A stretch of 64,000 bases of DNA from NCBI RefSeq assembly GCF_947493875.1, contig NZ_CANLSU010000005.1, forward strand, positions 230,169 through 294,168. Reading direction: 5' to 3'. Below the pieces are notes generated by a model that was not told the origin of the DNA, made no database searches, and worked only from the letters and a program-made list of their open reading frames with translations. Every line of letters starts with the position of its first letter. Within the stretch, counting starts at the first letter, position 1. Positions 7,044 through 56,251 of this stretch are shown here, in pieces. The translations under genes and the position numbers were made by a program. The DNA is from an uncultured Marinococcus sp. Its GTDB lineage: Bacteria > Bacillota > Bacilli > Bacillales > Marinococcaceae.

Positions 7044-7733
7044 TCAATCAAAATCTTTTTTATCTATTATCGGAATAGTTCCTAAAATAGGTAAGCTTAG
7101 TTCTTCCGTAATATCTTCTTCATTTTTAATTGATTTATCTAGAAATTCTATCATAAAAGCTAGACTAACACCTAAAATTAACCCTATCATCAAAGATATA
7201 AATAAATTTAACACAGGTTGAGGGTAAACTGGGGTATTACTTTCAGCTATTTTAGCTTGAGACAAGATGCTTACGTTGTCTACATCCATAATAGTAGAGA
7301 TTTCTTGTTCAAAAGTTTCAGCCAAAGTATTCGCTAATTTTACAGCCTTTTGTGGAGAAGTATCTTCTATGGTTACTGTGGCCACTTGAGATTCTTCTTC
7401 TGCTGTAACACTTATTTTAGAACGTAAATCACTTGTTGAACTTTGGAAATTAGTTTTCTCTAAAACTGGTTCTAATATAGCCGGACTAGTCATAATTACA
7501 TTATATGTACTAATCAATTCCCGGCTTGATTGCAAATCTGTAGTAGTCAACTCTTCATTTTCATTTTGAGATTGATTGACTAGCACTTGAGTAGAAGCTT
7601 GGTAACGTGGTGTTAGAACGAAAAAAGTAATTATAGCTCCTACAATAAGAGTAATCAAAACAATAGAAAAAATTAAACCCATGTGTTTTTTAGCTATTTT
7701 TAAAATTTCCAGTACACTAATTGATTCCTTCAT
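7044..7733 (-). CDS. wzz: Wzz/CapA-type polysaccharide chain-length regulator
   Basis: Membrane protein of 229 aa that sets EPS chain length and usually activates a partner tyrosine kinase. It has two transmembrane segments (about residues 18-40 and 170-190) around an extracellular domain with the LVNQSQ and STYNVIMTSPAIL motifs of this family. The cytoplasmic tail ends LPILGTIPIIDKKDFD. The ATG at 7733 follows GGAGG at five bases and is preferred to the upstream TTG at 7745. No kinase follows it; the only BY-kinase in the window is at 55559-56251. It is the last gene of locus 1 and a paralogue of the Wzz at 26460-27227. Confidence 0.88.
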   Translation of the reverse strand: MKESISVLEILKIAKKHMGLIFSIVLITLIVGAIITFFVLTPRYQASTQVLVNQSQNENEELTTTDLQSSRELISTYNVIMTSPAILEPVLEKTNFQSSTSDLRSKISVTAEEESQVATVTIEDTSPQKAVKLANTLAETFEQEISTIMDVDNVSILSQAKIAESNTPVYPQPVLNLFISLMIGLILGVSLAFMIEFLDKSIKNEEDITEELSLPILGTIPIIDKKDFD

Positions 7734-7890
7734 ATAATCCTCCAACTAAAATTTCATTTTCTTATTGCGAGTCTATTATTGTATATCTAAATTCTCGTTA
7801 TATGTTTTTAATATAAGCGACAAATCTAATAATTAGTAATAGTAACAAAAACAAAAATAACTCACTACAAAATTTTTAACGTGTTTAAAT

Positions 7891-8940
7891 CGTCAAATTA
7901 AGTTAGACAAAGCATCGATCTCCATGTACCTCATGAATACTTCCAACGGGGTGCAATAGTCTAATGATTTTCTTGGGATATGATTTCTTCGGGAGGCCAC
8001 GGCGGAAACATACGACTGATCGACGTCCTGAAAATCCATGTGCTTGGGCAGACCGTCCTTTCGGAGCAGGCCGTTTGAATGTTCATTTAACCCGCGTTGG
8101 GATGGGGTTCCTGGATCCGCAAAATAAATGGCAAGGTCATGGCTGTTGCTGATGGACCGCCAGTTGGAAAACTCCTTGCCACAGTCAAAAGTGATAGATT
8201 TGAACAGGTGTTTCGGGAAACAGCTGCACCACCGGTGCAGCGTGGTTTCAATATCCCTGGCCGTGCGGCCGGCTGGTTGCAGGGTAATAATGACTTTCGA
8301 CAAGCGCTCGACCAGAGTGATCACGGCACTTTGATGGTGACGGCCCACAATAGTGTCTCCTTCCAGGTGCACGAATTCCTGCCGAAAGGCCGGATAATCC
8401 CGGTTTCTGTCCGTCAATGTCCGGCCAAACGCCTGTTTTCCCCGGCGTTCCTGATATCCGTTCGGTTTTCGCTTTCCTTTCATCGGCAAAGCGTTTCGAT
8501 CTAGCACCCGTCGCTCGAATAGGCGGTATAGGGTTCGTCCGGAACAGGGCAGCGGACGCTCCTGGCGTCCGGCGATGACATCGGGGGTCCATCCCTCGCT
8601 GATTTTTTCGGTGACATAGGCCTGGTCGGTTTCCGATAAGACCGTTGGTCTTCGACCACAACGCTGTTTATTGGCTTGATACCGCTGAACATAATCGATG
8701 GCCCGATACCCTTCCCGTAAATAAGTCACGACGTTGTGGATCGTTTGACGGGCACGCCCGAGCTGCCTGGCCATCCGGGAAACAGGGATTTCCTTCTGCG
8801 CATACGCTTCTATCAGGACGACTTCATTCGTGCTAAGATGGGTGTAGGTCATTCGTGATCACTCCTATGATTTCTTTGGTCGGAAATTCATATCGAGTGT
8901 ATCACGAGTGATCTTTTTCGTTGTCTAGCTTAATTTTACA
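7891..8940. mobile_element. IS30-family insertion sequence
   Basis: About 1.05 kb bounded by imperfect ~20-bp inverted repeats (7891-7910 and 8921-8940, sharing AATTAAG-TAGACAA inward), with one transposase gene. The transposase stop lies inside the left repeat, as usual for compact IS elements. It separates the island's wzz from the aminotransferase gene without breaking either. Its GC-rich codons differ from the island, so it probably entered after the island arrived. I cannot identify a clear target duplication. Confidence 0.85.
7893..8852 (-). CDS. IS30-family transposase
   Basis: Apparently complete transposase of 319 aa. An N-terminal helix-turn-helix of the IS30 type (MARQLGRARQTIHNVVTYLR) is followed by the DDE catalytic core: Asp in LEGDTIVG, Asp in ITFDCGKEF and Glu in NEHSNGLLRKDG. 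The last two motifs are diagnostic of IS30. No frameshift is visible, so the element may still be active. Confidence 0.93.
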   Translation of the reverse strand: MTYTHLSTNEVVLIEAYAQKEIPVSRMARQLGRARQTIHNVVTYLREGYRAIDYVQRYQANKQRCGRRPTVLSETDQAYVTEKISEGWTPDVIAGRQERPLPCSGRTLYRLFERRVLDRNALPMKGKRKPNGYQERRGKQAFGRTLTDRNRDYPAFRQEFVHLEGDTIVGRHHQSAVITLVERLSKVIITLQPAGRTARDIETTLHRWCSCFPKHLFKSITFDCGKEFSNWRSISNSHDLAIYFADPGTPSQRGLNEHSNGLLRKDGLPKHMDFQDVDQSYVSAVASRRNHIPRKSLDYCTPLEVFMRYMEIDALSNLI

Positions 8941-22489: not shown

Positions 22490-22967
22490 AGTTTTCTCTA
22501 CTCCTTCTTGTAAGTAATAAATAATCCTCTGATTTGTTTCCGCGCATTTATTATAACCAAAGTGTTATATCTATTTATGTATTTAACGAACACTATTCAT
22601 TAACAATCTCAATCTTTTTGAGTTAACTTACAAATTATTATACATTAATTATTTCATTATGTGTTTTGGGTAATATTTCATAAAGTTTAAAACTGTAATT
22701 GAATACTTATTACAAAGCTATTTTCCTCTTAACTGGCAATAATTTCAACAGTCAAATTCAATTTTTTAGGAAAAACATCCTAAATTATTATTTTTTCACC
22801 GTTTATTAGTCTCATCCTATTTGATAATTCATAACATAGATCTCCTTCATTTATTTCACAATAAAAGTTAATTAATTAATAAGTGTGTGTCCTTCCCCAA
22901 GAGCAATTAATAATAAATTAAAAGTTAATAACGGGATTTACATATAATATAGTGATAAGAAATAATT
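22490..22967. promoter_or_regulatory. A+T-rich leader and promoter region of locus 1
   Basis: About 480 bases upstream of the first island gene with no reading frame. It is very A/T-rich, has many TTAATTAA-like tracts and ends abruptly at the junction with GC-rich epimerase DNA at 22968. The promoter of the island must lie here, but I cannot assign -10/-35 boxes with confidence in sequence this A/T-rich. Confidence 0.45.
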
Positions 22968-23988
22968 GATTTGTAGGCATGCATACAGCGGAACGTTTGC
23001 TGGAAGAAGGCTATGAAGTCGTCGGGGTTGATAACAATAACGATTACTATGACGTGAACCTAAAGTATAGCAGACAGGAGCGCCTGGAAAAACACGACGA
23101 ATTTCACTTTCATGAGTTGGATCTGGCCGACGCTTCTGCTCTTCAGGAGATTTTCAATACATATACGATTACTGTTGTCATCAACCTGGCGGCGCAGGCG
23201 GGCGTCTGTTACAGCCTGGAGCGTCCGGATAAATACATCCAATCCAATATTGTCGGGTTTTCAAACATTCTGGAAATGTGCCGTCACCATCAGGTCGAAC
23301 ATCTGATTTACGCGTCTTCCAGTTCGGTGTACGGGGCAAACAAAAAATGCCATTCTCCCCGGAGGACGGGGTAAATCATCCGGTCAGCCTGTACGCAGCG
23401 ACGAAAAAATCCAACGAGCTGCTGGCACATACGTACAGCCACCTGTATGACCTGCCGACGACCGGTCTGCGGTTCTTTACCGTATATGGAACGCTTGGGC
23501 GGCCGGATATGGCCTATTTCAAGTTTGCGAACAAAATCGTGAACGGGGAGCCGATCCAAGTGTACAACAACGGCGATATGATGCGGGACTTTACGTATAT
23601 TGACGATATCGTGGAGGGCATTGTGCGCCTGATTCCGGCTGTGCCGACCGGCGACAACTATTGGGATGCCGAAAATCCGGATCCGTCGACAAGCTATGCA
23701 CCCTACCGGGTCTTTAATATTGGCAACAACCAGCCAATCGCTCTGATGGAATTCATCGAAACATTGGAAAAGCATCTGGGCATGGAAGCGCGGAAGGAAT
23801 ATCTGCCGATGCAGCCGGGAGACGTGCAGGCAACATACGCAAACATCGACAGCCTGCAGAAGGCGGTCGGATTCAAACCACTTACCTCACTTGATGAGGG
23901 CATCGGCAAATTCGTGGAATGGTATAAGAACTATTATCCGGAATACTTTTCCGTGCAGTCAGCGTCCAAAAACAATTCCAATCATTAA
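22968..23988 (+). pseudogene. UDP-glucuronate 4-epimerase-like gene, truncated and frameshifted
   Basis: The coding sequence begins abruptly at the cofactor loop (FVGMHTAERLLEEG, preceded by an in-frame TGA), so the first strand of the Rossmann fold is missing. A one-base deletion in the A-run at 23342-23347 then shifts the frame: SSSVYGANKK continues as MPFSPEDGVNHPVSLYAATK one frame over. The rest to 23988 is normal for a ~340-aa UDP-glucuronate/UDP-sugar epimerase (TTGLRFFTVYG, RDFTYIDDIVEGI). Two independent lesions mean it is dead. It was probably the first gene of an older EPS or sugar-nucleotide locus cut by the island. Confidence 0.88.
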
Positions 23989-24059: not shown

Positions 24060-24982
24060 TTAAGCGGCTTGATTCCGGTATTCTATCGGGGTCAAGCCGT
24101 TTAAATGTTCCTGGTATCGTTGGTGGTTGTAAAACCGAATGTAGCGACGAATCGCTTTCACCAGGTCCTCATAGGTGGCATAAAACGAGTACGGCAGATA
24201 GTATTCTTCGCATTTCAGCGTGCCAAAAAACCCTTCCATGGGTCCGTTATCCAGACACCGGGACACCCGCGACATGCTGTGGTCCAGGCCGTGGGCCTCC
24301 ACGATGGCCTTAAATCCCCGCGAGGTGTACTGGAAGCCCCTGTCGCTGTGAATCATGGGCTGGGCGCCCGGACAAGCTCGAAGAGCTTGTTCCATGGTCT
24401 GAAAGACCAGTTGATTATTATTAAGCGGGCTGATTTCATAATGAACGATCGACTTGTCGTACAGATCGAATACGGTGCTGAGAAACGCTTTTCGTCCGGT
24501 AGCGTCCACGAATTCCGTGATGTCCGTCAGCCATTTCTCATTGGGTTGCGAAGCCTGAAAGTTCCGGTTGAGTTTGTTTGCCTCCACGTGCTGGGGCGAA
24601 GCTGCCGGCGAACGTTTCTTCTTCCGACGGATCACGGCCTGAAGATCGTAGATCTTCATGAGCCGGTACAGGCGTTTCCGGTTGACCGGCTGCCCCAGCT
24701 CCCGGGTTAGGTGTTGGGCCATCCGCCGGTACCCATAAATGCCCCGCACCCGGGTCTGTACCTCACGGACGAGCACCATCAGCGCCTCATTGTGCTTTTC
24801 CTCCGCCGTGGGGGTGCGTTTCCGCCATTTATAATAGGCCGCCCGGGAAACCCCAGCGATCCGGCACAACGCCTGCACCGGAAACCCCTGTTCCTCCTGC
24901 AGCTCCTGAATGGCTTGAAACCGGGACGCATAACGTACCCGCGTCAGCGATCCCTCCTTTCGATGTCCTGGAGCTTTTTTAA
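24060..24982 (-). CDS. IS3-family transposase OrfB (DDE integrase core)
   Basis: Catalytic part of the IS150-type transposase. After the HTH_21 region (IYGYRRMAQHLTREL) the rve core shows Asp in WLTDITEF, Asp in MIHSDRGFQYTS and Glu in GPMEGFFGTLKCE. It lacks its own convincing start. It is expected as an OrfAB fusion by -1 slippage on A-AAA-AAG at 24974-24980 (minus strand). The core itself looks intact. Confidence 0.9.
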
Positions 24983-25605
24983 AAAGGCATTCTCCATGCG
25001 TAATTGTTCGTTTTCCTTCTCGATCCGCCGTTTCTCCTGTTTGGCTTGCTCCTCGTTGGTTAACACTTTGGGTTGCCGGGAGTGTCCGCGACGGTCCTCC
25101 AGGGCCTCCCAGCCGCCCTGCTCGTATTTCTGGACCCATCGGTATACTTGATTGTAGGAAACCTGATGCTGCTCGGCGACACGGCGGTAATTCTTCTGTT
25201 GGGCCAGGTAATCCTGCACAATAGCTATTCGTTCCTGCCAGGTGGTGGAGCGTGCGTGTATCATCGGGGAACCTCCTCGTTTCTTAGATAGTAGGGTCCC
25301 TTCATGATACTGCACAATCCACCTCCGAAACACGGATCTACTCGAAATGCCGTAGAGATGAATAATATCCCGTTGTTCAGGTACGCTTCCACGGCTTCTT
25401 GCTTCTGTTCCTGGGAATATCGCTTCCACTGGGTGGCTTTCGTCAGTGCTTCGGCTCCATAGCGTTCGTACCGACTAATCCAATCCCTTAACGTTGTTTC
25501 GCGAATACCCCAATGATCACAAAAATCTTCCAACCTCTCCGTCCGTTGGTGAAAAGCCTGAATCACCGCTATTTTCTGCTCGTTCGTATACCCTCGATAA
25601 GACAT
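24944..25605 (-). pseudogene. IS3-family OrfA, frameshifted
   Basis: The N-terminal half starts at 25605 (ATG after GGGGGAG) with MSYRGYTNEQKIAVIQAFHQ. It runs in frame to about 25375 (KQEAVEAYLNN), then the homologous sequence continues in another frame (RDIIHLYGISSRSVFRRWI through NAFLKKLQDIERRDR). Two helix-turn-helix units and a C-terminal leucine-zipper-like segment are recognisable. IS150 OrfA is normally one reading frame, so this indicates a small deletion. Confidence 0.75.
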
Positions 25606-25712: not shown

Positions 25713-26231
25713 CTATGATAGCTGCGGTTTGACGTCAGCTGCACCAAGATCAAAACGGTGAATCATAATCAGCGTCTGCGCCATCGTGTGGACTGTGTCG
25801 GGGGGCACGAAGGTAACTTTGATATTCTCTCCGAGCAGCACCTGCTTGCCTGCTTCCTGGGAATCTTCCTCCACTTCGACGATGTATTCCAGCCCGTGCG
25901 GCGGCTGTTCCTCTGAAGCCATATACACGTTCTGCCATTCGGTTTCTTCGAGCAGCTCCTGCATTTGATCCCACTGCACGTAATTGCGGATGAGCCGGTT
26001 CATGTCTACGTACATGTAATGCTCTTTATTCACCTGGTAGTAACGGCGATTCTGTACCGGGCGTCCGGTAATCAGCTCCATCTCGCTTAGCCGCTTTAAT
26101 TCCACGCGTATGGCGTTGGCTGAATCGTTGAACTCGCGGACAATTCTTCTTAAATACGTTTCTTCCTCGCATAAAAAAAACTTCACGATTAACCGTAATC
26201 TTGTTTTTGATGTGACTAATTGATGCAGCAA
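25713..26231 (-). CDS. Winged-helix DNA-binding protein, EPS-associated (paralogue A)
   Basis: Protein of about 172 aa with an N-terminal winged helix: HQLVTSKTRLRL, then EEETYLRRIVREFNDSANAI, RVELKRLSEMELITG and an RRYYQVN wing. A C-terminal alpha/beta part follows (GLEYIVEVEEDSQEAGK). The TTG at 26231 has AGGAGG seven bases upstream; longer starts lack one. The protein at 40395-40889 is a clear paralogue along its whole length, and the two bracket EPS locus 2. The fold suggests transcriptional control (ArsR/MarR-like). I know of no named family; target and signal are unknown. Confidence 0.8.
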   Translation of the reverse strand: MLHQLVTSKTRLRLIVKFFLCEEETYLRRIVREFNDSANAIRVELKRLSEMELITGRPVQNRRYYQVNKEHYMYVDMNRLIRNYVQWDQMQELLEETEWQNVYMASEEQPPHGLEYIVEVEEDSQEAGKQVLLGENIKVTFVPPDTVHTMAQTLIMIHRFDLGAADVKPQLS

Positions 26232-26402
26232 CGATTTTCCTCCTCTGGCGGCGATGATTTTAACAGGTATCTTCAAACGAGCGGGAAAATACTTGAAGCC
26301 GGTTTTATTTCTACTCATTGTTTCGGCTGTTTTCGCAGGGATATGAAGGTTATTTGCCAGGTAATTTCAAAAACTTTCTTTTTGTATTTATATATCCAGG
26401 CC
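26232..26402. promoter_or_regulatory. Leader of winged-helix gene A
   Basis: About 170 bases between the locus 2 terminator and the TTG start of the winged-helix gene. It should hold this gene's own promoter, since a strong terminator lies upstream. I see no clear sigma-A boxes or palindrome. Confidence 0.35.
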
Positions 26403-26459: not shown

Positions 26460-27227
26460 TTATGAAGTTTTTTGTTTGGAAACCTTTGGGCTTTCACTGT
26501 CAGGCTGCGTAATGTCCTCCAGTTCAATCACTTCTTCTGTCCGGTTTTGCTTCTGATCGGAAATAAATGCAATCGTTCCAAGAACAGGCAGACCCACGTT
26601 GTTTTCAACATCCTCTTCCTCTTTAATCGTCCGGTCAAAGTATTCGCGTACGAATGCAAATCCGATGCCGATCATCGCGCCGATCAATAGAGCAAGCCCC
26701 ATACTAAAAATTAGTTGCGGCGATACTGGTTCCTCCGCGTCGGCTAATTTGGCTGGTGCCAGCACGCTGACATTATCCACGCTCATAATTTGCGGCACTT
26801 CGCGTTCAAACACTCGGGCTGTCGTATTGGCGATCGAAACTGCCATTTTCGCATCCGTGTCCTCCACCGTAATCGACGCTACCTGCGATTCATTTTCCCC
26901 GGCAACCGTAATCTGGGACTGCAGCTCTTCCACCGTTTCGTTCAAGTTTGCCTCCTCGATGACCTGTTCAAGAATCGGCGCGCTCATAATAATGACGTTG
27001 TACGTGTTAATATACGCCAGGTTCGCCTCCAGTCCGGTGCCGGGCTCTGCACCCTCCTCCGGCTCCTGGTTCACGAGGATCTGTGCCCGGGCTTCGTACA
27101 CCGGCGTCATGAACAGGTACGTATACGCCGCACCGACCATTCCTCCGATAACAGCGAAGGCCGCGATCACCAGAGCGTATTTTTTCAGGACAGTCAGCAC
27201 CTTTGCTGCGCTCATGGTTTTTTCCAT
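26460..27227 (-). CDS. wzz: Wzz/CapA-type chain-length regulator (locus 2)
   Basis: Membrane protein of 255 aa with two transmembrane segments (about 15-38 and 180-202). The extracellular domain carries ILVNQEPEEG and INTYNVIIMSAPIL. The cytoplasmic tail has the VGLPVLGTIAF motif and then an acidic extension of about 30 residues that the island Wzz lacks. It controls chain length and normally presents its tail to a BY-kinase. It overlaps the preceding GT4 gene by 16 bases. RBS AAGGAGG. Last gene of locus 2 before the terminator. Confidence 0.9.
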   Translation of the reverse strand: MEKTMSAAKVLTVLKKYALVIAAFAVIGGMVGAAYTYLFMTPVYEARAQILVNQEPEEGAEPGTGLEANLAYINTYNVIIMSAPILEQVIEEANLNETVEELQSQITVAGENESQVASITVEDTDAKMAVSIANTTARVFEREVPQIMSVDNVSVLAPAKLADAEEPVSPQLIFSMGLALLIGAMIGIGFAFVREYFDRTIKEEEDVENNVGLPVLGTIAFISDQKQNRTEEVIELEDITQPDSESPKVSKQKTS

Positions 27228-35003: not shown

Positions 35004-35988
35004 GGTAGATGGTCCGTACCTTCTGATGGCTGCCGTAATGGTTCAAATCGCTCTCCACCATCATTTCCACCAGCTCCCGGAACCCGACTTCGAGCTCCCA
35101 TCCGAGCTTTTCCTTTGCCTTCGAGCAGTCACCGAGCAGAAGGTCCACCTCGGCCGGCCGGACAAATTTTGGATCGGTCACCACGTAGTCACGCCAGTCG
35201 AGGCCCACGTATTGAAAGGCAATGTCCACCAGCTCTTCGACCGTATGCGTCTCGCCGGTCGAGATCACGTAGTCATCCGGCTCGTCGCTCTGCAGCATGA
35301 GCCACATGGCTTTTACGTAGTCACCGGCATAGCCCCAGTCACGCTTGGCATCGAGGTTGCCCATCCGCAGCTCGCTCTGCAGTCCGAGTTTGATGCGGGC
35401 AGCGGCGTCCGTCACCTTCCGGGTCACAAATTCCATTCCGCGCCGTGGGGACTCGTGGTTGAATAAAATGCCGGCGCAGGCAAACATATCAAAGCTTTCC
35501 CGGTAGTTGACGGTAATCCAGTGACCGTACGTTTTCGCCACTCCGTACGGGCTGCGGGGCCAGAACGGCGTCGTTTCCGTCTGCGGCGTCTCGAGCACCT
35601 TGCCGAACATTTCCGAGCTTGAGGCCTGATAAAAGCGAGCGTCCGGCTTGGCGATGCGGACCGCTTCGAGCATATTGACGACGCCGACAGCGGTAATCTG
35701 GCTGGTTGCGATCGGCTGCGGCCACGAGGTGGCAACAAATGACTGGGCGGCCAGGTTGTACACCTCGTCCGGCTGCGACTGCTGGACGGCGCTGATGAGA
35801 GAGGACAAATCGGTCAGGTCACCATCGATCCATTCAACCTGGTCTCTCACGTGCTCGATGTTTTCAAAGTTCGGGGTGCTCGTCCGGCGCCGGAGGCCGT
35901 AGACGGTGTAGCCTTTTTCGAGCAGAAACTCCGCCAGGTATGAGCCGTCCTGACCGGTCACGCCGGTAATAAGTGCTGATTTTGTCAT
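34990..35988 (-). CDS. gmd: GDP-mannose 4,6-dehydratase
   Basis: Converts GDP-D-mannose to GDP-4-keto-6-deoxymannose, the first committed step to GDP-L-fucose. The cofactor loop is [19 protein letters not shown]. Catalytic residues lie in SSSEMFG and [12 protein letters not shown], and the substrate site in [15 protein letters not shown]. Length 332 aa is near normal. It overlaps fcl by four bases and the flippase by 14, in the order manC-fcl-gmd. Confidence 0.96.
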
Positions 35989-36941
35989 AGGGAAGCAGCT
36001 CCTTTGTTTGGTTGTGCCGCGTGGCTGGTGTACCAGTCGTACGTTTTTTCCAGGCCGTCGGCAAGCGGCGTTTTGGCCTGCCAGCCGAGGCCGTGCAGCC
36101 TGGTGACATCGGTGCGTTTACGGAATGTGCCGTCAGGTTTACTGGTATTAAATACAAACTCGCCGTCAAAGCCGGTAACAGCTTTAAGCGTTTCGGCGAG
36201 CTCCCGGACGGAAAGATCCCGCCCGGTGCCGACGTTCACCATGTCCGTGCCGTCGTACTCGTTCATCAAAAAGACGCAAGCATCAGCCAGATCGTCCGCA
36301 TACATAAACTCGCGGCGCGGCTCGCCCGTGCCCCATATTTCAACTGTTGGGTCGCCGTTTACTTTTGCTTCGTGGCATTTCCGCATCAGTGCCGGAAGCA
36401 CGTGCGACGTTTCCAGGTCAAAATTGTCGTTTTTTCCGTACAGGTTCGTCGGCATCGCGGCGATAAAACGGGTGCCGTACTGTCGGTTGTAGGACTCGCA
36501 CATCTTCAGTCCGGCAATTTTTGCGATCGCGTACGGTTCATTCGTCGCCTCAAGTGCTCCGGTTAAGAGCGCCTCCTCTTTAATCGGCTGCGGGGCATGT
36601 TTTGGATAAATGCACGTACTGCCTAAAAACAACAGCTTTTTCACGTTGTACTTATAGGCCGCATCGATAACATTTGTTTGAATATATAAGTTATCCCGGA
36701 TAAAATCCGCCGGATAATCATTATTCGCGGTAATGCCGCCAACTTTAGCGGCTGCTAAAAACACGTAATCTATCGAAGAGGATTGAAAAAAAGCGTCTAC
36801 CTCGGTTTGGTTTCGTAAGTCGAGCTCGCTGCTCGTCCGGTACACCAGGTTCGTATAGCCTTCGCTCTGCAGCTTCCGCAGAATCGCGGAGCCTGCAAGC
36901 CCCCGGTGCCCGGCCACATATATACACGCATGTTTTTCCAC
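35985..36941 (-). CDS. fcl: GDP-L-fucose synthase
   Basis: NADPH-dependent 3,5-epimerase/4-reductase that finishes GDP-L-fucose, 318 aa. The cofactor loop is [12 protein letters not shown]. The catalytic Ser and Cys are in [14 protein letters not shown], Tyr and Lys in [20 protein letters not shown], and the catalytic His in [11 protein letters not shown] chose GTG at 36941 with AGGAG five bases upstream; the frame is open further but lacks a ribosome binding site. It is preceded by the structured leader at 37042-37170. A degenerate paralogue lies at 39456-40379. Confidence 0.95.
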
Positions 36942-37041
36942 TGGAGCTCCTCTTTTCCAATAAGATTTTGGCGTTGTGCAGTATCTGCATCTATTCAAAA
37001 CAGATGGCTGGAGTGTGAATGCCAATAGTTTGTCTTTTCAT

Positions 37042-37214: not shown

Positions 37215-38603
37215 CTATTTAATGAACTTAGCGGCGGAGCCGTTGTGGGCACGGAGCACATCATCCCACGTGTCATGGATCCGGACGGTGTCCTCGTCGC
37301 TGATGTCGATGCCTGTCTGTACCTCCACTATTTCAAGGTCAATGGTGGCCCGGAGCGCGTGCTTTGTGCCCGCCGGCAGATGAACCACGTCGCCCGCTTT
37401 GATGCGATGCATATGGTTGTCGACCGCAACTTCGCCTTCCCCGCGCACGACCGTCCACACCTCGTCGCGGTTATGGTGATAGTGAAGCGTTGAATTTTTT
37501 CCTCTTTCCAACAGAATACGTTTTGTGATCATCATCTGGCCGTCCGGATACTTGGCGTGGTCGAGCACCCGTGACCATCCCCACAGCCGCTCCTCGTACA
37601 TCTGCGGGTAGCGGAAGTCCTTAATCAGTTCTTTAATCTGTGAGCTCGCTTTTTTGCTTGCGACAATGATGCCGTCGGGACTCGAGACAACCACCATATT
37701 GCTGGCGTCAATGACCGCAACCGGAATGTCGAGCTCATTCACGAGATGGGTGTTGACCGAACTTTCGGAAATGATGCCTTTCCCGGTCTGATTCGCGGCC
37801 ATTTCCTCGGTGAGCGTGTTCCACGTGCCAAGGTCCTTCCAGTCGCCTTCGTATTTTAAAACGGTGATTTTTTCCGCCCTCTCCACAACCCGGTAATCAA
37901 AGCTGATCTCGGGGATGGTATGGTACTGGCTTTTAAGCAGCTCGTACTCAAACGGCAGCTGCTCCTCCTTGAGAATTCGAAGCAGATAATTCATCGTAAA
38001 GCCGAACACGCCGCAGTTCCAGAGCGCCTGTTTATCGATGAGCCGCTTTGCGGTTGCTTCGTCCGGCTTTTCCGTAAAGGCTCTGACGGTAAAAACGCCG
38101 GTTTGCTTATTCTGGCCGCCCGGCACAATGTAGCCGTATTTGGTGGATGGGTATACCGGCCGCACGCCCATCAGAGCCATACTGCTCGTGCCTTCCTGAA
38201 TCAGTCGTTCCAAAAGTTTAAAATTTTCAAAAAACGAATTGTCTACGAAGGCATCTACCGGCAGCATCACAATCACTTCCTCCGGAGACGCTTTTTCGAC
38301 AGAAAACAGGTAGCTCGCTGCAAGGGCCACAGCCGCAAACGTATCGCGGCGCGACGGCTCCATCACCAGAGGAACCTCTTCCCCGAGCTGGCGCCTGATC
38401 AGATCCTTCTGTGATTCCGAGGTGGCGATCACCGCCGAGGAGGCAAGGCCGCATGCTTCAAGCTGTCTCCACACCCGCTGGACCATCGACTCCTTCTGGC
38501 CGTCCGGCCCGTCGAGCACCTTGAGAAACTGTTTGGATCTCGTATCGTTGGACAATGGCCACAATCGTTTTCCAGACCCTCCGGATAACAGGACTAATCG
38601 CAT
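37215..38603 (-). CDS. manC: Mannose-1-phosphate guanylyltransferase (ManC, bifunctional type)
   Basis: Makes GDP-mannose from mannose-1-phosphate and GTP. The N-terminal nucleotidyltransferase domain has LLSGGSGKRLWPLSNDTRSK, the MLPVDAF active-site region and AFTEKPDEATAKRL. The C-terminal cupin has TLHYHHNRDEVWTVVRGEGE and HLPAGTKHAL, as in type II phosphomannose isomerases, so it may also isomerise fructose-6-phosphate. Length 462 aa is typical. RBS GGAGGAAGGCAG. It feeds gmd and fcl downstream. Confidence 0.95.
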   Translation of the reverse strand: MRLVLLSGGSGKRLWPLSNDTRSKQFLKVLDGPDGQKESMVQRVWRQLEACGLASSAVIATSESQKDLIRRQLGEEVPLVMEPSRRDTFAAVALAASYLFSVEKASPEEVIVMLPVDAFVDNSFFENFKLLERLIQEGTSSMALMGVRPVYPSTKYGYIVPGGQNKQTGVFTVRAFTEKPDEATAKRLIDKQALWNCGVFGFTMNYLLRILKEEQLPFEYELLKSQYHTIPEISFDYRVVERAEKITVLKYEGDWKDLGTWNTLTEEMAANQTGKGIISESSVNTHLVNELDIPVAVIDASNMVVVSSPDGIIVASKKASSQIKELIKDFRYPQMYEERLWGWSRVLDHAKYPDGQMMITKRILLERGKNSTLHYHHNRDEVWTVVRGEGEVAVDNHMHRIKAGDVVHLPAGTKHALRATIDLEIVEVQTGIDISDEDTVRIHDTWDDVLRAHNGSAAKFIK

Positions 38604-38645: not shown

Positions 38646-39404
38646 TTACGTTCGTTTAAAAAAAGCACGTTTCTTGTGCAGAGGCTCGGGCGGGTCCACA
38701 AACGCCGGCGAACCGACCAGCAGGCGCTTGGTATTTTCCTGCAGCTCCCGGCCTTTTTTCAGGCCGAGAGCTGCAGCGGTCTGTTCGTAGGCAGGCTTTA
38801 AGCGAAAAGGCACGCTGTCTGCCTGTGAAGCGATAAAATGAGCCAGGTTTTTCCGCAGGAGTTTCAGGGCGAACCGCTGTTTTTTGCGGCCGCGTTTTCC
38901 TGCGACCGTCTCCGCGCTCACCTGCGAAAGCGCCCCGTGGGAAACGAAATAATACAGCGGGTCGTCTGTCTCGGCGGACCCGGCCAGCCGCTCGGGATGC
39001 GTCATGATTGGAATATAGCCCTCAAGCTGCATGGAATAAAACAGCCTTTTAATACGTGCGAAGGTGTCGCCGGTCTGCATTTCCACAAGTACATAATTGG
39101 TGTCTTCAAGCGGAAGTAATTGCCCGGATAAAAGGTCATCTGTCATCCCCTGATGCAGTGTAATTTCATGGCCGCTTTTGACATGCAGCAGAATGCCTTC
39201 GGCCCGGAGCTTCGTATTAAAATCGAGCACGGCTTCCTTCACGGTCAGACCGTCATTTTCATAGATGCCGGGCCGGTAATGCGGTGTGGCAAAAACCGTC
39301 TGAATATTGTTTGCAACGGCTTCCTTTGCAATGGCAATGCTTTCGTTTACTGCCTCCGGCCCGTGGTCGAGCCCTGGCAGAATGTGTGTGTGTATATCGA
39401 TCAT
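38646..39404 (-). CDS. cpsB: CpsB/YwqE-like PHP phosphatase with altered last metal site
   Basis: PHP-fold protein of 252 aa related to the Mn-dependent tyrosine phosphatases that reset BY-kinases. Present ligands: HTH in MIDIHTHILPG, His in FATPHYRPG, Glu in SGHEITL and His in MTHPERL. Altered: the usual DDG becomes LDHGP, and the final ASDAHN motif becomes ASQADS, losing one Asp and one His ligand. The C-terminus ends in the usual basic tail. The ATG at 39404 follows GGGGGA. Activity may be reduced or lost. A more degenerate paralogue is at 40947-41680. Confidence 0.88.
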   Translation of the reverse strand: MIDIHTHILPGLDHGPEAVNESIAIAKEAVANNIQTVFATPHYRPGIYENDGLTVKEAVLDFNTKLRAEGILLHVKSGHEITLHQGMTDDLLSGQLLPLEDTNYVLVEMQTGDTFARIKRLFYSMQLEGYIPIMTHPERLAGSAETDDPLYYFVSHGALSQVSAETVAGKRGRKKQRFALKLLRKNLAHFIASQADSVPFRLKPAYEQTAAALGLKKGRELQENTKRLLVGSPAFVDPPEPLHKKRAFFKRT

Positions 39405-39455
39405 CCGGCGTTCCCCCAGGTATCTGTTTCGATTCATTCCTTGCAGGGAGCGCCC

Positions 39456-40379
39456 TTACGCCCGGCCGGCGCGGTCCCTCTCTATTTCCCATTGATGCAG
39501 AGCCTGCAGCCCTTTGGCAAGCGATACTTCCGGGTACCAGCCGTACCGGTTGATTTTTGACGTGTCGAGCGTCTTTCTCCTCATCCCGCCGGATCCCGAG
39601 CCTGTAAAAAATACGGCGCCTCTGTAGCCGGTAATCCGCTTGATCAGCATGACGAGCTCCTTTGCGCTCACCTCCCGCTCGGTACCGATATTGACCGGGC
39701 CCTTTTCATTGTAGTGATTCATTACAAACACGCAGCCGGAGGCCATATCGTCGCCGTAGATGAGCTCCTGGAAGGCGGGTTCTTTTTCCGGAATTTCCAC
39801 CTTCGACTGCCACTGGTCCCGGGCCCGGATGCACCGCTGCATCGCATCGGCTACCATGCCGTCCTGCCTGTTCATGTCTGCTGCGGTATACATTCGCGGA
39901 GCCACCGCAATATGGAAATTTGTGTTGGAGGCCCGGTTGTAGGCCCGGCAGAGAGCAATGCCCTCCCTGGTCACCTGCGTCTGTTCCGCGTATACCTCAT
40001 CAATGATCCCCCGCTGCAGAAATGTCTCCTTCAGCGGCTGCGGGGTGTACTTCGGATATACGTGAATGTCGCCGACATACAGCAGCTTTTTCACGTTATA
40101 CCGGGCAGAGGCCTCGAGCACGTTCGCCTGGTGCCAGCGCCTCGCCTGCAGCTCTGCCTTCGCATTTGATTCTGCATATTCATAGCCGTCTGTCATAAGC
40201 ACATACTCGATATTTTCCTCTGCGAAAAATGTATTCATGGCCTGAATGCTTTCCCTTCCCGCTTCCATGCCGGTACGCACAACCACGTTTTCGTATCCCT
40301 GCTTTAACAGGTAGTGATAAATGGCGCTGCCTGCCCTCTCCTGATGATTGGTTACGTAAATTTTCGCCTGTTTATCCAA
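39456..40379 (-). CDS. Degenerate GDP-fucose synthase paralogue (probable pseudoenzyme)
   Basis: Protein of 307 aa that aligns end to end with the intact Fcl at 35985-36941 (KQGYENVVVRT, NVKKLLYVGDIHVYPKY, ELIYGDDMASGCVFVMN, VNIGTEREVSAKEL). The cofactor loop GHRGLAGSA is NHQERAGSA. The catalytic Ser-Thr-Cys region GSTCIYP is GDIHVYP. The Tyr-x3-Lys motif YAIAK is YAEQT with a three-residue insertion, so Lys is gone. The reading frame is intact over 924 bases and has an AAGGAGG box before a TTG start, so it is probably translated. Function as a synthase is unlikely; a binding or regulatory role is possible. Confidence 0.82.
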   Translation of the reverse strand: MDKQAKIYVTNHQERAGSAIYHYLLKQGYENVVVRTGMEAGRESIQAMNTFFAEENIEYVLMTDGYEYAESNAKAELQARRWHQANVLEASARYNVKKLLYVGDIHVYPKYTPQPLKETFLQRGIIDEVYAEQTQVTREGIALCRAYNRASNTNFHIAVAPRMYTAADMNRQDGMVADAMQRCIRARDQWQSKVEIPEKEPAFQELIYGDDMASGCVFVMNHYNEKGPVNIGTEREVSAKELVMLIKRITGYRGAVFFTGSGSGGMRRKTLDTSKINRYGWYPEVSLAKGLQALHQWEIERDRAGRA

Positions 40380-40394
40380 CCCGGCGGCCTCCTT

Positions 40395-40889
40395 TTATGA
40401 AACCTTTTCTTTTTGCCTGCCTACGCTTATCAGCACCTGCTCAATATGGTTCAGCATGGAAGTCGTTGCGAACGTCACCGTCGTCCCCTCTCCGAGATAA
40501 AACTGCTTCCCCCAGTGCGGAGAGTTTTCCTCCACTTCGATCACGTATTCCACCGGCGAGCTCCGTTTCGGATCAGGCGTAATGTAGATGGTCTTCCAGT
40601 CGATTCCCTTCAGCTTCTCATGCAGCTCGTCCCAGTATAAGTACTGTTTAATGAGCGACTCCATCTGCAGGTGCAGGTAGTAATCTTTATTGATTTTATA
40701 GTAGCGTCGGTTTTTGACCCAGCGGTCGGTAATTAAATTCATATCATACAGCCGCCGAAGCTCGAGGCGGATCGCATTTGTTGACTCCTTGCATTCGCGC
40801 ACGAGCTCACGCAGATACGTTTCCTCCTCTGTCAGATAAAACTTCATTACGAGCCGCAGTCTTGTTTTGGATGTTACTAGCTGGTGCAA
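40395..40889 (-). CDS. Winged-helix DNA-binding protein, EPS-associated (paralogue B)
   Basis: About 164 aa with the same architecture as the protein at 25713-26231: HQLVTSKTRLRLVMKF, EEETYLRELVRECKESTNAI, RLELRRLYDMNLITD, NRRYYKINKDYY, then YVIEVEENSPHWGKQF. I prefer the TTG at 40889, six to seven bases after GGGGGAG. It is the second gene of locus 2, between the two degenerate-enzyme genes, so it is probably an operon-encoded regulator. Both paralogues match through the C-terminal EVEE region, which may bind a ligand or partner. Function unproven. Confidence 0.8.
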   Translation of the reverse strand: MHQLVTSKTRLRLVMKFYLTEEETYLRELVRECKESTNAIRLELRRLYDMNLITDRWVKNRRYYKINKDYYLHLQMESLIKQYLYWDELHEKLKGIDWKTIYITPDPKRSSPVEYVIEVEENSPHWGKQFYLGEGTTVTFATTSMLNHIEQVLISVGRQKEKVS

Positions 40890-40946
40890 AACCATCTCCC
40901 CCTTCAGTCCCCTCGTCAATACGGATTATGTTCTTTGCCGGGGCTA

Positions 40947-41680
40947 TTACAGCGTCAGTGCCGGCGGTGTGACCCTTCCCCCTTCCAGCAGCAGATGCGT
41001 ATTTTTCTGCATCCGCTCCCATTCATCGAGCCGGTTCATCCGGGCAAACTGCCGATGCATCTGATCCAGGCAGAATGGCTCGTCATATGCACTGCAGGCG
41101 TTCGATGCCACAAATGCACGAGCCGCTTTTTTAGAAAATATTTCGCCCAGCGCCGGTCGGTTCTCCCATCACGGCCGAGCAGTGCTCCCGCACTGAGCTG
41201 CACGGCTGCTCCTTCATTCACAAGCGTCTCAAGCCCCCCGCGCTTCTTCTGAAACATCTGCAGCCGCTCCGGCGATGAAAGAATGGGAATGAACCCGTGA
41301 TTGTACAGTTTTTTGAGCATCTGCCGGACGTATAAAAAGCTGTGGGTTTCATTCATATGAACGAGTACATAATTGGTATGCTCCAGCGGCAGAATCCTTT
41401 TTCTTTCCAAATCGATTTCCATTCCGCCGTACAGGGTGATTTCCTGACCCGAGCGGACGCGGACCGGAATCCGTGCTTTCAGGAGCTGAAAATTCAGAAA
41501 TTTTACCGCCTCTGTCACGAAAACGGCCCCGAAATCATACGACGGATACCGGTATCCAGGCGTTGCGTAAATAATGCTGACACCGGCGGCCGCTGCCTGC
41601 CTGGCCATTTCCAGGCTTTCCTTCATCGTGTTTGGGCCGTGATCAAAGCCGGGAAGAATATGGGCATGCATCTCAATCAT
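40947..41680 (-). pseudogene. CpsB/YwqE-like PHP phosphatase, frameshifted and lacking metal ligands
   Basis: First gene of locus 2. HAH in MIEMHAHILPG and Glu in SGQEITL remain, but the His of ATPHY is Gly (YATPGYR) and the His of HPER is Ser (LSSPERL). A one-base loss in a T-run (plus-strand AAA, 41112-41114) shifts the frame; the open frame then ends at 41036. Restoring it gives FVASNACSAYDEPFCLDQ and a full-length C-terminus ending at the TAA at 40947. There ASDAH is ASNAC, so Asp and His are also lost. Either a decayed gene or a pseudoenzyme with a recent frameshift. Confidence 0.82.
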
Positions 41681-41763
41681 GTACTCACCCCTTTCTATTT
41701 GAGCAAGGCAAATGTACTACGTGATATTTTTTAGAATATTTTGCCTGTTGCCGTTTCTTTTAT

Positions 41764-41831
41764 ATTAATAGTCCAGTATAATTATTAATAGTAATTACCT
41801 AGTCATTAATAATCACACAAATGTTAATAGT
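41764..41831. promoter_or_regulatory. Array of four phased direct repeats (RTTAATART)
   Basis: ATTAATAGT at 41764, ATTAATAGT at 41784, ATTAATAAT at 41805 and GTTAATAGT at 41823 are spaced 20, 21 and 18 bases apart, about two helical turns. They lie in the divergent region between EPS locus 2 and the two-component system and overlap TATAAT (41777-41782, plus). A regulator binding one DNA face, such as the adjacent NarL-type response regulator or winged-helix protein B, is a natural candidate. Confidence 0.6.
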
Positions 41832-41898
41832 CATATGACCTTTTCTAGGAAGATGGGACCCCGCGCGGGATTACCCCGGCGAAAGGGAGTGGATCTGA

Positions 41899-43071
41899 AT
41901 GAACCGCCGCCAGCGAATCTTCATGTATACGATCCAATTCATAGCCATCATCGCAGCCGGACTGTTCGTATACATGGAGTCGCCGGATGAGCGGTGGCTT
42001 GCCGCAGGCCTTTGCTGGGTATTTGGTATTATTCAGATGATCCGGCTCATGCTTTTATCCATACCACTTGCCCGCTTTTCCTCGGTGATGGTCATCTGCC
42101 TCCAGTTCCTCATTGCCTGGGTGGTTCAGGCCATTGCCGGCGGGTTTGTGCCCCAGACACTCTTTTTCGTCCTGATTGCCGAGCTCGGCTACCGGGCGCC
42201 TCGGCGCTTCAGCTTTCCGTTCATGCTTCTCTGCTTTGCGGGATTTGCGAGCGCTTCGGTGTTTCACGAAGGGGCTCTGACTGCTTCGGCACTCCTCCTT
42301 GTGCTTCCGCGTTCCATTGAATACGTACTGTTCTGGGGGTTCAGCTATCTGGCCAAGCGCTCCAACGAACAGCGCAATGAGCTGCAGCGGGCCTACGACC
42401 GGCTCCGGCTGTATCACCGGGAGATGGAGGATAGATCCATTATGCAGGAGCGGCTGAAGCTCTCCCGGGACATTCATGACAGCGCCGGTCATTATTTAAC
42501 CACCTCCATGATGGCGCTTGAAACAGCCAAACGTCTGCTCGAAAAGGGCGAGGTGGAAAAAGCCCGCACCCAGCTGCAGACGTCCAAGCATCAGGTGCAG
42601 GAGACCATGAAGGAAATCCGGAAAACGGCGCATTCCATGGCGCACACCGACGGCTTCATCGATCTTCCGGCTGCGCTGGAGGGTCTTCTCGTCTCCACCC
42701 GCGACACCTCGGACGTACGGATCGAGTGGGAGTTTGATGAGCCGCTGCCCCTTTTGCGTTCGGAGCAGGAGATGCTTTTGTACCGGATGCTCCAGGAGGG
42801 GCTCACCAATGGCCTCCGCCACGGTGGGTGCACGTATTTTTCCTATACATTGTCCACGAAGGTGCCCGGCCAGCTGATTGCCCGGCTCGAAGACAATGGC
42901 CGCACAGCCGCGAAAAACGTCAGCTACGGCTTCGGCCTTCGCGGGCTGTCCGCCCGGGCCGAAGAGCTCGGCGGCCTGCTTCGTTTCGAAGCAATTGCCG
43001 AAGACAGAAACGGCATGGCGCTTGAACTGCGCCTGCCGGTGAAGGACCGGAGTCCTTACACTCCGTCATAA
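41899..43071 (+). CDS. Sensor histidine kinase (HisKA_3, NarL-system type)
   Basis: Membrane kinase of 390 aa. About six hydrophobic segments fill residues 8-150 with almost no external loop, so it probably senses a membrane or intracellular signal. A coiled linker leads to the phospho-acceptor His in LSRDIHDSAGHYLTTSMMAL. The HATPase domain has QEGLTNGLRHGG (N box) and YGFGLRGLSARAEELGG (G box). GGGAG precedes the ATG at 41899. It is cotranscribed with the response regulator 61 bases downstream. Confidence 0.93.
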   Translation: MNRRQRIFMYTIQFIAIIAAGLFVYMESPDERWLAAGLCWVFGIIQMIRLMLLSIPLARFSSVMVICLQFLIAWVVQAIAGGFVPQTLFFVLIAELGYRAPRRFSFPFMLLCFAGFASASVFHEGALTASALLLVLPRSIEYVLFWGFSYLAKRSNEQRNELQRAYDRLRLYHREMEDRSIMQERLKLSRDIHDSAGHYLTTSMMALETAKRLLEKGEVEKARTQLQTSKHQVQETMKEIRKTAHSMAHTDGFIDLPAALEGLLVSTRDTSDVRIEWEFDEPLPLLRSEQEMLLYRMLQEGLTNGLRHGGCTYFSYTLSTKVPGQLIARLEDNGRTAAKNVSYGFGLRGLSARAEELGGLLRFEAIAEDRNGMALELRLPVKDRSPYTPS

Positions 43072-43132: not shown

Positions 43133-43804
43133 ATGGAAACCGTTCGGATAGGGATTGTCGATGATCATGCCATTGTCCGGGACGGACTGGCGATGATCAT
43201 CGAGCTTGAAGAGGATCTGGAAGTGGTCGGTATTGCGCGAAACGGGGCGGAAGCAGAAATGATGCTTACGAATGAGCTTCCGGACGTGGTGATGCTTGAT
43301 GTGTACTTAGAGGGCAATAATGGTATTGAATGGCTGCCGGACTTTCAGCTGACATCGCCGCAGACGAAGTTTATTATGCTCAGCTCCTACGTGGACGCGG
43401 AAAATGTCATTCAGGCGCTGGCCAACGGCGCGAAGGGGTTTCTTCTGAAGGACTGGGAAAGCGATGAGCTCGTCCGCTGCGTGCGCCAGGTGGCCCGCGG
43501 CCAGATGGTGCTTCCGACATCTGTCTCGGAGACGCTGAGCGACCAGCTGGTCGCCCGCAACCGCAAGGACGGCGCCCCGCATTTTCAGGAAACCGAGGAC
43601 ACCACCGGTCTTTCCCTGCAGGACCGGCGGATTATGGATCTGCTGCTCGCAGGCTACTCCAACCAGGAGATTGCGGATACACTGTTTTTAACACTCGGCA
43701 CCGTTAAAAATTACCTGACCGCCATCTACCGGAAAATCGGCGTCCACAACCGCCGCGAAGCGATTGCCTATTTCCAGCGGCGGCACAAAGAAACCGGCTC
43801 CTAG
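43133..43804 (+). CDS. NarL/FixJ-family response regulator
   Basis: Response regulator of 223 aa. The receiver domain has the acidic pair in GIVDDHAIVRDG, the phospho-acceptor Asp56 in VVMLDVYLEG, and Lys in KGFLLKDWESDE. The LuxR-type helix-turn-helix is GYSNQEIADTLFLTLGTVKN. RBS AGGAGG. It is the cognate partner of the kinase upstream. Its likely targets include its own promoter region and the divergent EPS locus 2 through the direct repeats there (inference). Confidence 0.94.
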   Translation: METVRIGIVDDHAIVRDGLAMIIELEEDLEVVGIARNGAEAEMMLTNELPDVVMLDVYLEGNNGIEWLPDFQLTSPQTKFIMLSSYVDAENVIQALANGAKGFLLKDWESDELVRCVRQVARGQMVLPTSVSETLSDQLVARNRKDGAPHFQETEDTTGLSLQDRRIMDLLLAGYSNQEIADTLFLTLGTVKNYLTAIYRKIGVHNRREAIAYFQRRHKETGS

Positions 43805-55518: not shown

Positions 55519-55560
55519 ACGAGCCGGCTCCTGATTTTTAGGAGCCGGCTCGTTCTGTTT
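55519..55560. terminator. Bidirectional intrinsic terminator
   Basis: ACGAGCCGGCTCCT and AGGAGCCGGCTCGT form a perfect 14-bp stem with a GATTTTT loop, followed by TCTGTTT. It separates the convergent DeoR and kinase genes. Confidence 0.92.
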
Positions 55561-56251
55561 AACCGTAATAGTAGTAATAGCTTTGATCCATACCTTTTTT
55601 CTGGTTCAATATGCAGCCAAGAATTGGCACGCCGCTTACTTCCAGCAGGTCTTTAGCCTTCCGGGCGGCATCATTTTCGGTTTCTCCGGCTTTGACCACG
55701 AGAATACTTCCGTCGCAGTGGCGGGAGATAACCTGAACGTCCGTCACCGCGAGCACCGGCGGCGCGTCAAACAAAATCACGTCGTACTGCTCGCGGGCAA
55801 GCTCCACCAGATGAGCCATTGAACGGCTTCCGAGAATTTCAGATGGATTTGGTGGGATCGGGCCGCTAGGCAGAATATCGAGGTTCGGCACTTCAGTTTC
55901 CTGTACGTATCCTGCATATTCTCCGTGATTCGTCAGAGCGTTAATAAGCCCGTGTGTATTCATGCGGCGAAACGTATAGTGCACGGTCGGCTTACGAAGA
56001 TCAGCGTCCACGAGAAGCACCTTTTTTTCCTGCTGGGCCATCGTTACCGCGAGATTTGCCACCGTGGTGGATTTTCCTTCCCCCGGTCCTGCTGATGTGA
56101 CAACCATCGTCTGCATCTCTTTATCCACTGAGGAATATTGAATATTAGTACGAATCGTACGGTACTGCTCGGATACAGGGGATTTGCTGTTCAGCCAGGT
56201 AATGAGCTTCCGCTGATTCGTGTTCGTCTCTTGCTTCTTTTTTCGTGCCAA
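55559..56251 (-). CDS. cpsD: BY-type protein tyrosine kinase (CpsD/YwqD)
   Basis: Cytoplasmic autophosphorylating kinase of 230 aa that works with Wzz/CapA proteins to control EPS export. The Walker A motif is SAGPGEGKSTTVANLA, A' is VLLVDADLRKP and Walker B is VILFDAPPVLAVTD. The C-terminus ends in the tyrosine cluster SYYYYYG. TTG start at 56251 with AAAGGAG and an extended -10 upstream. It stands alone, far from both wzz genes, and is the only BY-kinase in the window. Confidence 0.95.
   Translation of the reverse strand: MARKKKQETNTNQRKLITWLNSKSPVSEQYRTIRTNIQYSSVDKEMQTMVVTSAGPGEGKSTTVANLAVTMAQQEKKVLLVDADLRKPTVHYTFRRMNTHGLINALTNHGEYAGYVQETEVPNLDILPSGPIPPNPSEILGSRSMAHLVELAREQYDVILFDAPPVLAVTDVQVISRHCDGSILVVKAGETENDAARKAKDLLEVSGVPILGCILNQKKGMDQSYYYYYG

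Follow-up and report, generated by a model that had tools for sequence, protein, structure and literature searches.

Two altered CpsB-like proteins, a winged-helix protein and an Fcl-like protein form a conserved head module, possibly a control unit, in an exopolysaccharide locus of Marinococcus

What role could be played, at the head of a polysaccharide locus, by three altered relatives of enzymes that accompany a predicted DNA-binding protein? This question is raised by a stretch of 64,000 nucleotides (the window; C5:230169-294168 in contig coordinates) from a genome of Marinococcus, a salt-loving bacterium. In the exopolysaccharide (EPS) locus concerned, the order of transcription on the minus strand is cpsB2, wHTH1, pFcl and cpsB1, then manC, fcl, gmd and the glycan genes; cpsB1 and cpsB2 encode relatives of the CpsB/YwqE tyrosine phosphatases, pFcl a paralogue of the GDP-L-fucose synthase Fcl (GDP, guanosine diphosphate), and wHTH1 a winged helix-turn-helix (wHTH) protein. 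The original prediction had singled out these four genes and proposed for them a shared regulatory function. The four-gene head is real, its gene positions and order having been confirmed on the minus strand; its shared function is still something that we infer, on better foundations and in a more testable form than before. We tentatively read the four genes as a conserved head module that may be a control unit coupling the state of a tyrosine kinase to EPS transcription, a reading that falls somewhat short of an even chance. The genes of the head and their immediate neighbours are the following.

41036..41680, minus strand: cpsB2, CpsB/YwqE-like (Pfam CpsB_CapC), 3/9 metal ligands kept, frame broken near 41110
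40395..40919, minus strand: wHTH1, winged-helix protein of ArsR/SmtB-like predicted fold (from a model); an alternative start, ATG at 40895, is possible
39456..40379, minus strand: pFcl, Fcl paralogue with a TTG start (GTG in G012), catalytic and most checked cofactor residues gone
38646..39437, minus strand: cpsB1, CpsB/YwqE-like, 6/9 metal ligands kept, last motif changed from SDAH to SQAD
37215..38603, minus strand: manC, mannose-1-phosphate guanylyltransferase family, behind the module in 5/5 genomes
41899..43071, plus strand: HK, sensor histidine kinase of the HisKA_3 type, divergent from the module
43133..43804, plus strand: RR, NarL-type response regulator, forming the divergent pair with HK

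The gaps after wHTH1 and pFcl measure 15 and 18 base pairs (bp), respectively, and Pfam (E<=0.001) recognises CpsB_CapC in cpsB2 (129 bits) and cpsB1 (159 bits) and Epimerase in pFcl (61 bits). Four further Marinococcus genomes were compared, with species names deduced for them: G012 (M. halophilus KCTC 2843), G013 (M. halotolerans DSM 16375), G014 (M. luteus DSM 23126) and G015 (Marinococcus sp. PL1-022), the last being of the same species as the window genome. The order cpsB2-wHTH1-pFcl-cpsB1-manC, together with the divergent HK/RR pair, is found in all five, bearing out the conserved order on which the original prediction had let its regulatory reading depend, and the frames of the module are open in every copy except cpsB2 of the window. 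The mean pairwise ratio of nonsynonymous to synonymous substitution rates (dN/dS) is 0.036 for wHTH1, the lowest of 18 genes, 0.089 for cpsB2 (first 190 codons), 0.118 for pFcl and 0.145 for cpsB1. The means of 14 neighbour genes run from 0.045 to 0.222, with three module genes inside this range and wHTH1 below it; among the enzymes of the locus, manC has 0.088, fcl 0.093 and gmd 0.045. For the four module genes, bootstrap upper bounds are at most 0.26 in the two pairs tested. Since cpsB2 and pFcl stand on long stems in their trees and have low present dN/dS, their sequences speak for a history of fast change first and constraint now. Three other genes of the window are needed for what follows.

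35988-36944: true fcl, paralogue of pFcl in the same locus
25713..26318, minus strand: wHTH2, paralogue of wHTH1 (49%), at the far end of the locus
55559..56251, minus strand: CpsD-like bacterial tyrosine kinase (BY-kinase), the sole match in the genome at E<=1e-15

The genes behind the head have had another history. Synonymous distances to M. halophilus are 0.66 to 1.0 for the module and the HK/RR pair vs 0.30 to 0.54 from fcl to gt4, with 0.64 for manC and 0.68 for wzz. Because these distances differ between head and cargo, it appears that the head has been inherited along with the genus, the cargo being subject to exchange, and the glycan genes look to have been exchanged more recently. In M. 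luteus, different genes lie between gmd and wHTH2. M. halotolerans has no glycan genes between manC and wHTH2: wHTH2 comes directly after manC and leads on to a further polysaccharide cluster, which carries a manC, gmd and fcl of its own, and the module is retained, with dN/dS of 0.043 to 0.169 relative to M. luteus. The retention of the module in a species without adjacent glycan genes goes beyond the original prediction, and the constraint seen there gives a hint of a module function not limited to the nearby glycan genes. Because order and selection have been kept while the genes behind were swapped, the four genes may well act together as a control unit. This arrangement recalls the streptococcal cps loci, in which a conserved cpsABCD head is followed by swappable glycan genes. 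Both have a conserved 5' head that includes CpsB-type genes, with exchanged glycan genes behind it; unlike the streptococcal head, that of Marinococcus consists of altered CpsB copies, a winged-helix protein and an Fcl-like protein, with the BY-kinase and the intact CpsB encoded elsewhere.

In the mechanism that we propose, wHTH1, predicted to bind DNA, would govern transcription from ACTATTAA-type repeats upstream of the module, with either wHTH1 or the response regulator as the binder, and the altered CpsB and Fcl proteins would be its non-catalytic partners. The altered CpsB proteins would bind the phosphotyrosine of the BY-kinase CpsD, or of the wing of wHTH1, without removing it efficiently; reading or shielding the tyrosine phosphate in this way, they would let the state of the kinase reach transcription. 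The Fcl-like protein would be an adaptor, with a former active-site region remodelled for contact with protein and not with a sugar nucleotide. The part of this proposal that concerns wHTH1 and the repeats is based on fold, family context and the repeat array, and the CpsB part on knowledge of the family and on the precedent of FatR. In Bacillus subtilis, this regulator is described as being phosphorylated by the BY-kinase PtkA at a tyrosine of its DNA-binding domain and then leaving its operator (PMC4205851). FatR and PtkA thus serve as a model of a tyrosine kinase acting on a regulator, the phosphorylation of wHTH1 being hypothetical.

The assignment of wHTH1 depends on its predicted structure and on its relatives. 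No Pfam match over the cut-off was found for it (E<=0.001), and it reaches neither of the ArsR family cut-offs (20.7 of 55 bits for HTH_metalloreg and 12.6 of 22 for HTH_5). Its model (pLDDT, the predicted local distance difference test, of 88) matches SmtB, SqrR, CzrA and HlyU over residues 1-95, and chains of the MarR type about equally. The protein is thus like the ArsR/SmtB repressors in its predicted winged-helix fold and unlike them in staying under the curated ArsR cut-offs and in having a C-terminal region without an assigned kind. It carries the core TSKTRLRL...STNAIRVEL of a large unnamed winged-helix family, whose profile finds 2719 proteins at E<=0.001 (the best 120 of the 2719 being listed). 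At the level of the order, 13/150 genomes match this family (E<=1e-6), and in five the match is weak, at about 30 to 36 bits; the five strong matches outside the bacterial family all lie among polysaccharide genes (two neighbours of each checked with Pfam). Within the bacterial family, nine loci from other genera to which the search for wHTH relatives had led were inspected by eye, and two of them (L077, L081) lie beside an intact cpsB and polysaccharide genes. Two further ideas about this family were rejected. A general linkage with Fcl was not seen, the family being present in only three, all from Marinococcus, of 32 Fcl loci (several short or cut by contig ends), and a nucleotidyltransferase-like C-terminus in the wider family amounted to a hint by eye and a sub-threshold Polbeta match of 12.8 bits in 1/10 proteins. 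Among the five Marinococcus genomes, wHTH2 is split over two frames in M. luteus only (L069:3247-3965).

Between the histidine kinase gene and cpsB2 lies a candidate target for such a regulator.

41726..41839: 114-bp block, identical in five genomes
41763..41832, minus strand: four direct repeats (G/T)A(C/T)TATTAA(T/C)(A/G), spaced by 18, 21 and 20 bp

The block (41839-41726 in the direction of the module) is identical at 114/114 bp in the five genomes vs 272/616 fourfold sites of neighbour genes. On the module strand, its repeats read GACTATTAACA, GATTATTAATG, TACTATTAATA and GACTATTAATA, 18, 21 and 20 bp apart, and an array of this type, searched as a triple pattern, occurs once per genome in 5/5 Marinococcus genomes. 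Single 11-mers with <=2 mismatches are common in the window (43 observed vs about 20 expected), so that only the array is distinctive; none of 500 mononucleotide shuffles yielded a four-copy chain. The array is a plausible regulatory target and a putative operator. It might also serve the divergent two-component pair only, which would directly activate the EPS operon, the head genes having nothing to do with transcription. The position of the array between HK and cpsB2 fits this alternative, as does the presence of HK and RR with the module in all five genomes; it leaves unexplained, however, that wHTH1 has the lowest mean dN/dS of the 18 genes, and we regard it as unlikely, though not by far.

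The CpsB-like proteins of the head have been altered to different degrees. In Cps4B, the metal ligands are given as H5, H7, E80 and D199 for M1, E80, E108 and H136 for M2, and D14, H42 and H201 for M3 (PMC2777267). Both head proteins score above the CpsB_CapC gathering cut-off of 27 (cpsB1 158.6 bits, cpsB2 129.1 bits), and cpsB1 aligns to nearly the whole of YwqE; they are like the PHP-type tyrosine phosphatases CpsB and YwqE (PDB 3qy6, 2wjd) in this respect and unlike them in the replacement of 3/9 ligands in cpsB1 and 6/9 in cpsB2 (and 9/9 in a third copy of the genome, on contig C4). The original prediction had described the first CpsB-like protein, cpsB2, as having no metal ligands. Six of the nine are indeed replaced (D14, H42, E108, H136, and the D and H of the last motif, these two read from the four intact copies in other genomes); H5, H7 and E80 remain. 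For the second, cpsB1, the predicted change of the last metal motif (SDAH to SQAD) holds, and its status as a pseudoenzyme is doubtful, with 6/9 ligands and Arg139 kept. Its changes by alignment to YwqE are D14H, D199Q and H201D, the first and last amounting to a swap of two M3 ligand types, whereas H42 and the M2 ligands are among those retained; cpsB1 may still bind metal, and its sequence is insufficient for calling it dead. The ligand changes are the same in 5/5 genomes for cpsB1, and also for cpsB2 except at the H42 position, which is G in three genomes and R in two. The phosphate-binding Arg139 is present in cpsB1 and cpsB2 of the five genomes and is K in the third altered copy on contig C4. 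In the tree, cpsB1 and cpsB2 are sisters (100/100), with cpsB2 on a long stem.

G000:C4:17752-18567 (L084) in the window genome, and L135:11988-12788 in G015: third altered CpsB, beside a LytR-CpsA-Psr gene (by Pfam in G000)

Each of the five genomes has four CpsB homologues, three of them low-scoring and one the canonical CpsB with 9/9 ligands, which in the window genome is on contig C4. The third altered copy has 0/9 ligands at the residue level in two genomes, and is known from its low score alone in the other three; one intact vs three altered CpsB proteins were counted in the two genomes examined fully. These three altered copies in the window genome, compared with a single intact CpsB and the one BY-kinase detected, are also an addition to what had been predicted. 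Two Wzz-like chain-length genes (7044-7745, by eye, and 26460-27227, by Pfam Wzz) likewise stand against the one detected BY-kinase of the genome. Altered copies have been found in other Bacillales: 11 full-length CpsB copies in 8 genomes lack 6 to 9 of the 9 ligands, in a sample chosen for low or multiple CpsB matches, which gives no rate. Their loci are L091 (a tandem of three), L092, L093, L095, L097, L098 (where the altered CpsB directly adjoins an intact one), L099, L100 and L101, and a CpsD-like gene was seen by eye within about 5 kilobases (kb) in 3/8 genomes (L091, L098, L100). The strongly altered copies in this chosen set point to the existence of CpsB-annotated proteins that cannot work as normal phosphatases. 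In another locus (L094:8506-13793), four CpsB-like genes of only 203 to 218 aa, without the N-terminal part, come after manC; 2/4 of them were checked with Pfam.

The Fcl-like protein was predicted to lack catalytic and cofactor residues. Its five catalytic positions are all lost in 5/5 genomes (S107D, C109H, Y136Q/K, K140T and H179G; Q in four genomes and K in one at Y136), and the cofactor part of the claim holds for most of the checked positions, not for all: two of the three glycines of GxxGxxG are gone and three columns are deleted at A64-V66. S107, Y136 and K140 are named as mutated positions in the PDB titles of matched structures, and C109 and H179 presumably have their roles in GDP-fucose synthase, for which no supporting paper was found. 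W202, R209, D278 and K283 we take to be the GDP contacts of the Escherichia coli enzyme; pFcl replaces the first three and retains K283. Because cofactor positions and these presumed contacts are replaced, the sensing of GDP-sugars by pFcl, part of the earlier proposal, has been weakened. Against NCBIfam NF047922 (cut-off 500), pFcl scores 167.3 and the true Fcl of the locus 488.3, just below. The predicted fold and full-length alignment of pFcl are like those of GDP-L-fucose synthase Fcl/WcaG (PDB 1bsv, 1e6u), unlike which it stays under the curated cut-off and has lost catalytic and cofactor residues. Its model (pLDDT 89.7) has an extended short-chain dehydrogenase/reductase (SDR) fold, with template modelling (TM) scores of 0.85/0.82 to 1gfs (the input alignment being mostly Fcl relatives) and query TM-scores of 0.82 to 0.89 for the first seven PDB matches, of the GDP-fucose-synthase fold.

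Of 103 columns with a conservation of at least 90% across 38 other Fcl proteins, pFcl departs from 53 and the true Fcl from 1. The altered positions show no greater conservation than the remainder of the protein, 38/53 being invariant across the five pFcl proteins vs 229/307 overall. Nevertheless, residues 81-160, which held 4/5 catalytic residues, have a dN/dS of 0.044 vs 0.12 to 0.21 elsewhere (one genome pair), and S107D and C109H are invariant inside this most constrained strip. The adaptor role proposed for pFcl as a dead enzyme is argued for solely by this constraint pattern. The type occurs in 5/29 genomes of the bacterial family, all of one genus, and was not found in the other 24; a protein search gave three matches with at least 78% identity to pFcl vs Fcl proteins at <=36% (among the best 120 of 837). 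In the tree, the stem of pFcl is very long. Fungal NmrA and Gal80 are enzyme-derived co-regulators of transcription that have retained nucleotide binding. The proposed role of pFcl would be like theirs, a dehydrogenase-like protein without catalysis controlling a transcription factor, with no relatedness claimed; unlike them, pFcl is without two of the three loop glycines.

Alternatively, the altered proteins might be non-catalytic subunits that tune their active paralogues, pFcl pairing with Fcl (or Gmd/ManC) and the CpsB copies pairing with the intact CpsB or shielding CpsD, and wHTH1 would then be an ordinary operon regulator sharing their transcript. The genome encodes an intact paralogue of every altered protein; the original prediction had placed these paralogues within the locus, which is right for the true fcl, while the intact cpsB is elsewhere, and wHTH1 has a paralogue too, wHTH2. 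The pFcl model also keeps the GDP-fucose-synthase fold, and a small inhibitor that binds CpsB, CcpS, is reported from Streptococcus suis (PMC10148854). This explanation is nonetheless rather improbable: M. halotolerans keeps pFcl with neither fcl nor gmd beside it, although an Fcl of 68% identity is encoded about 14 kb away, and wHTH1 is fixed between cpsB2 and pFcl in 5/5 genomes. Neofunctionalised enzymes are a further candidate, pFcl with D and H at S107 and C109, and the CpsB copies with a rebuilt metal site in cpsB1, catalysing new reactions. The invariance of S107D and C109H in the most constrained strip of pFcl would agree with it, as would the retained M2 ligands and the swapped M3 ligand types (D14 and H201) of cpsB1. 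An SDR reaction by pFcl is unlikely because its loop for nicotinamide adenine dinucleotide phosphate (NADP) and the neighbouring cofactor positions are lost, and cpsB2 retains H5, H7 and E80 only; we hold the idea to be quite doubtful. Simple decay of duplicated EPS genes, with which the cpsB2 frameshift in the window and the very long stems of pFcl and cpsB2 would agree, is excluded for practical purposes by dN/dS (0.04 to 0.17 in two pairs, bootstrap upper bounds <=0.26) and by the conserved order, every other copy of the four genes having an open frame; of the signs of decay named in the original prediction (dN/dS close to 1, stop codons, a gene order that is not conserved), this one frameshift is what was found.

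Several observations weigh against the reading of the four genes as a control unit. A promoter scan found no promoter of the sigma-70 type on the module strand, and the NarL-type response regulator, instead of wHTH1, may be the protein that uses the array. As a general operator the array was rejected, none being present in the five cpsB upstream regions examined in other loci (L077, L081, L084, L085, L098). Eleven upstream regions of wHTH genes from other genera have scattered single motifs (1-2 mismatches), arrays not being sought there, and a distant relative of HK in G017 has no motif within one mismatch and one two-mismatch match in 4.1 kb. Of the nine wHTH loci of other genera mentioned above, six are outside an evident polysaccharide locus (L075, L076, L078, L079, L080, L082) and one (L083) is an ordinary ArsR of an arsenic operon. 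The wing segment contains four tyrosines in 9/9 Marinococcus wHTH1 and wHTH2 sequences and 3/82 other members reach four, an enrichment that counts for the reading as a weak argument, a lead and not a test. The open reading frame of cpsB2 has 214 aa in the window (frameshift near 41110) vs open 244-aa frames in 4/4 other Marinococcus genomes, which may mean that the gene is dispensable in one isolate or that a base was wrongly called. With 6/9 ligands and Arg139, cpsB1 may be an active phosphatase. Finally, a recent loss of cargo in M. halotolerans would leave no trace in dN/dS and could also explain the constraint on its module.

Elsewhere in the polysaccharide region, transposase-like genes were seen by eye at 7893-8852 and 24060-25429 (IS30-like and IS3-like), and an NAD-dependent epimerase-like gene at 22949-23985 is split across two frames, with an intact 353-aa homologue (92%) in L069 of M. 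luteus.

A wider possibility is that of a class of pseudo-phosphatases in EPS loci, in which CpsB-derived readers of phosphotyrosine would relay the state of a BY-kinase to a winged-helix regulator, with a dead GDP-fucose synthase as the adaptor. This is a speculative proposal that we consider improbable as it stands; no paper on such a module was found by title or abstract in the open-access literature, subscription papers not being covered. If it is true, such readers would recur across Bacillales wherever an intact CpsB is found together with strongly altered copies. To our knowledge, it is poorly understood how gene expression reads the state of the tyrosine kinases in the machinery for capsules and EPS, and the combination in Marinococcus of altered phosphatases under selection, a dead sugar-nucleotide enzyme, a predicted DNA-binding protein and one invariant array resembling an operator would make this question testable.

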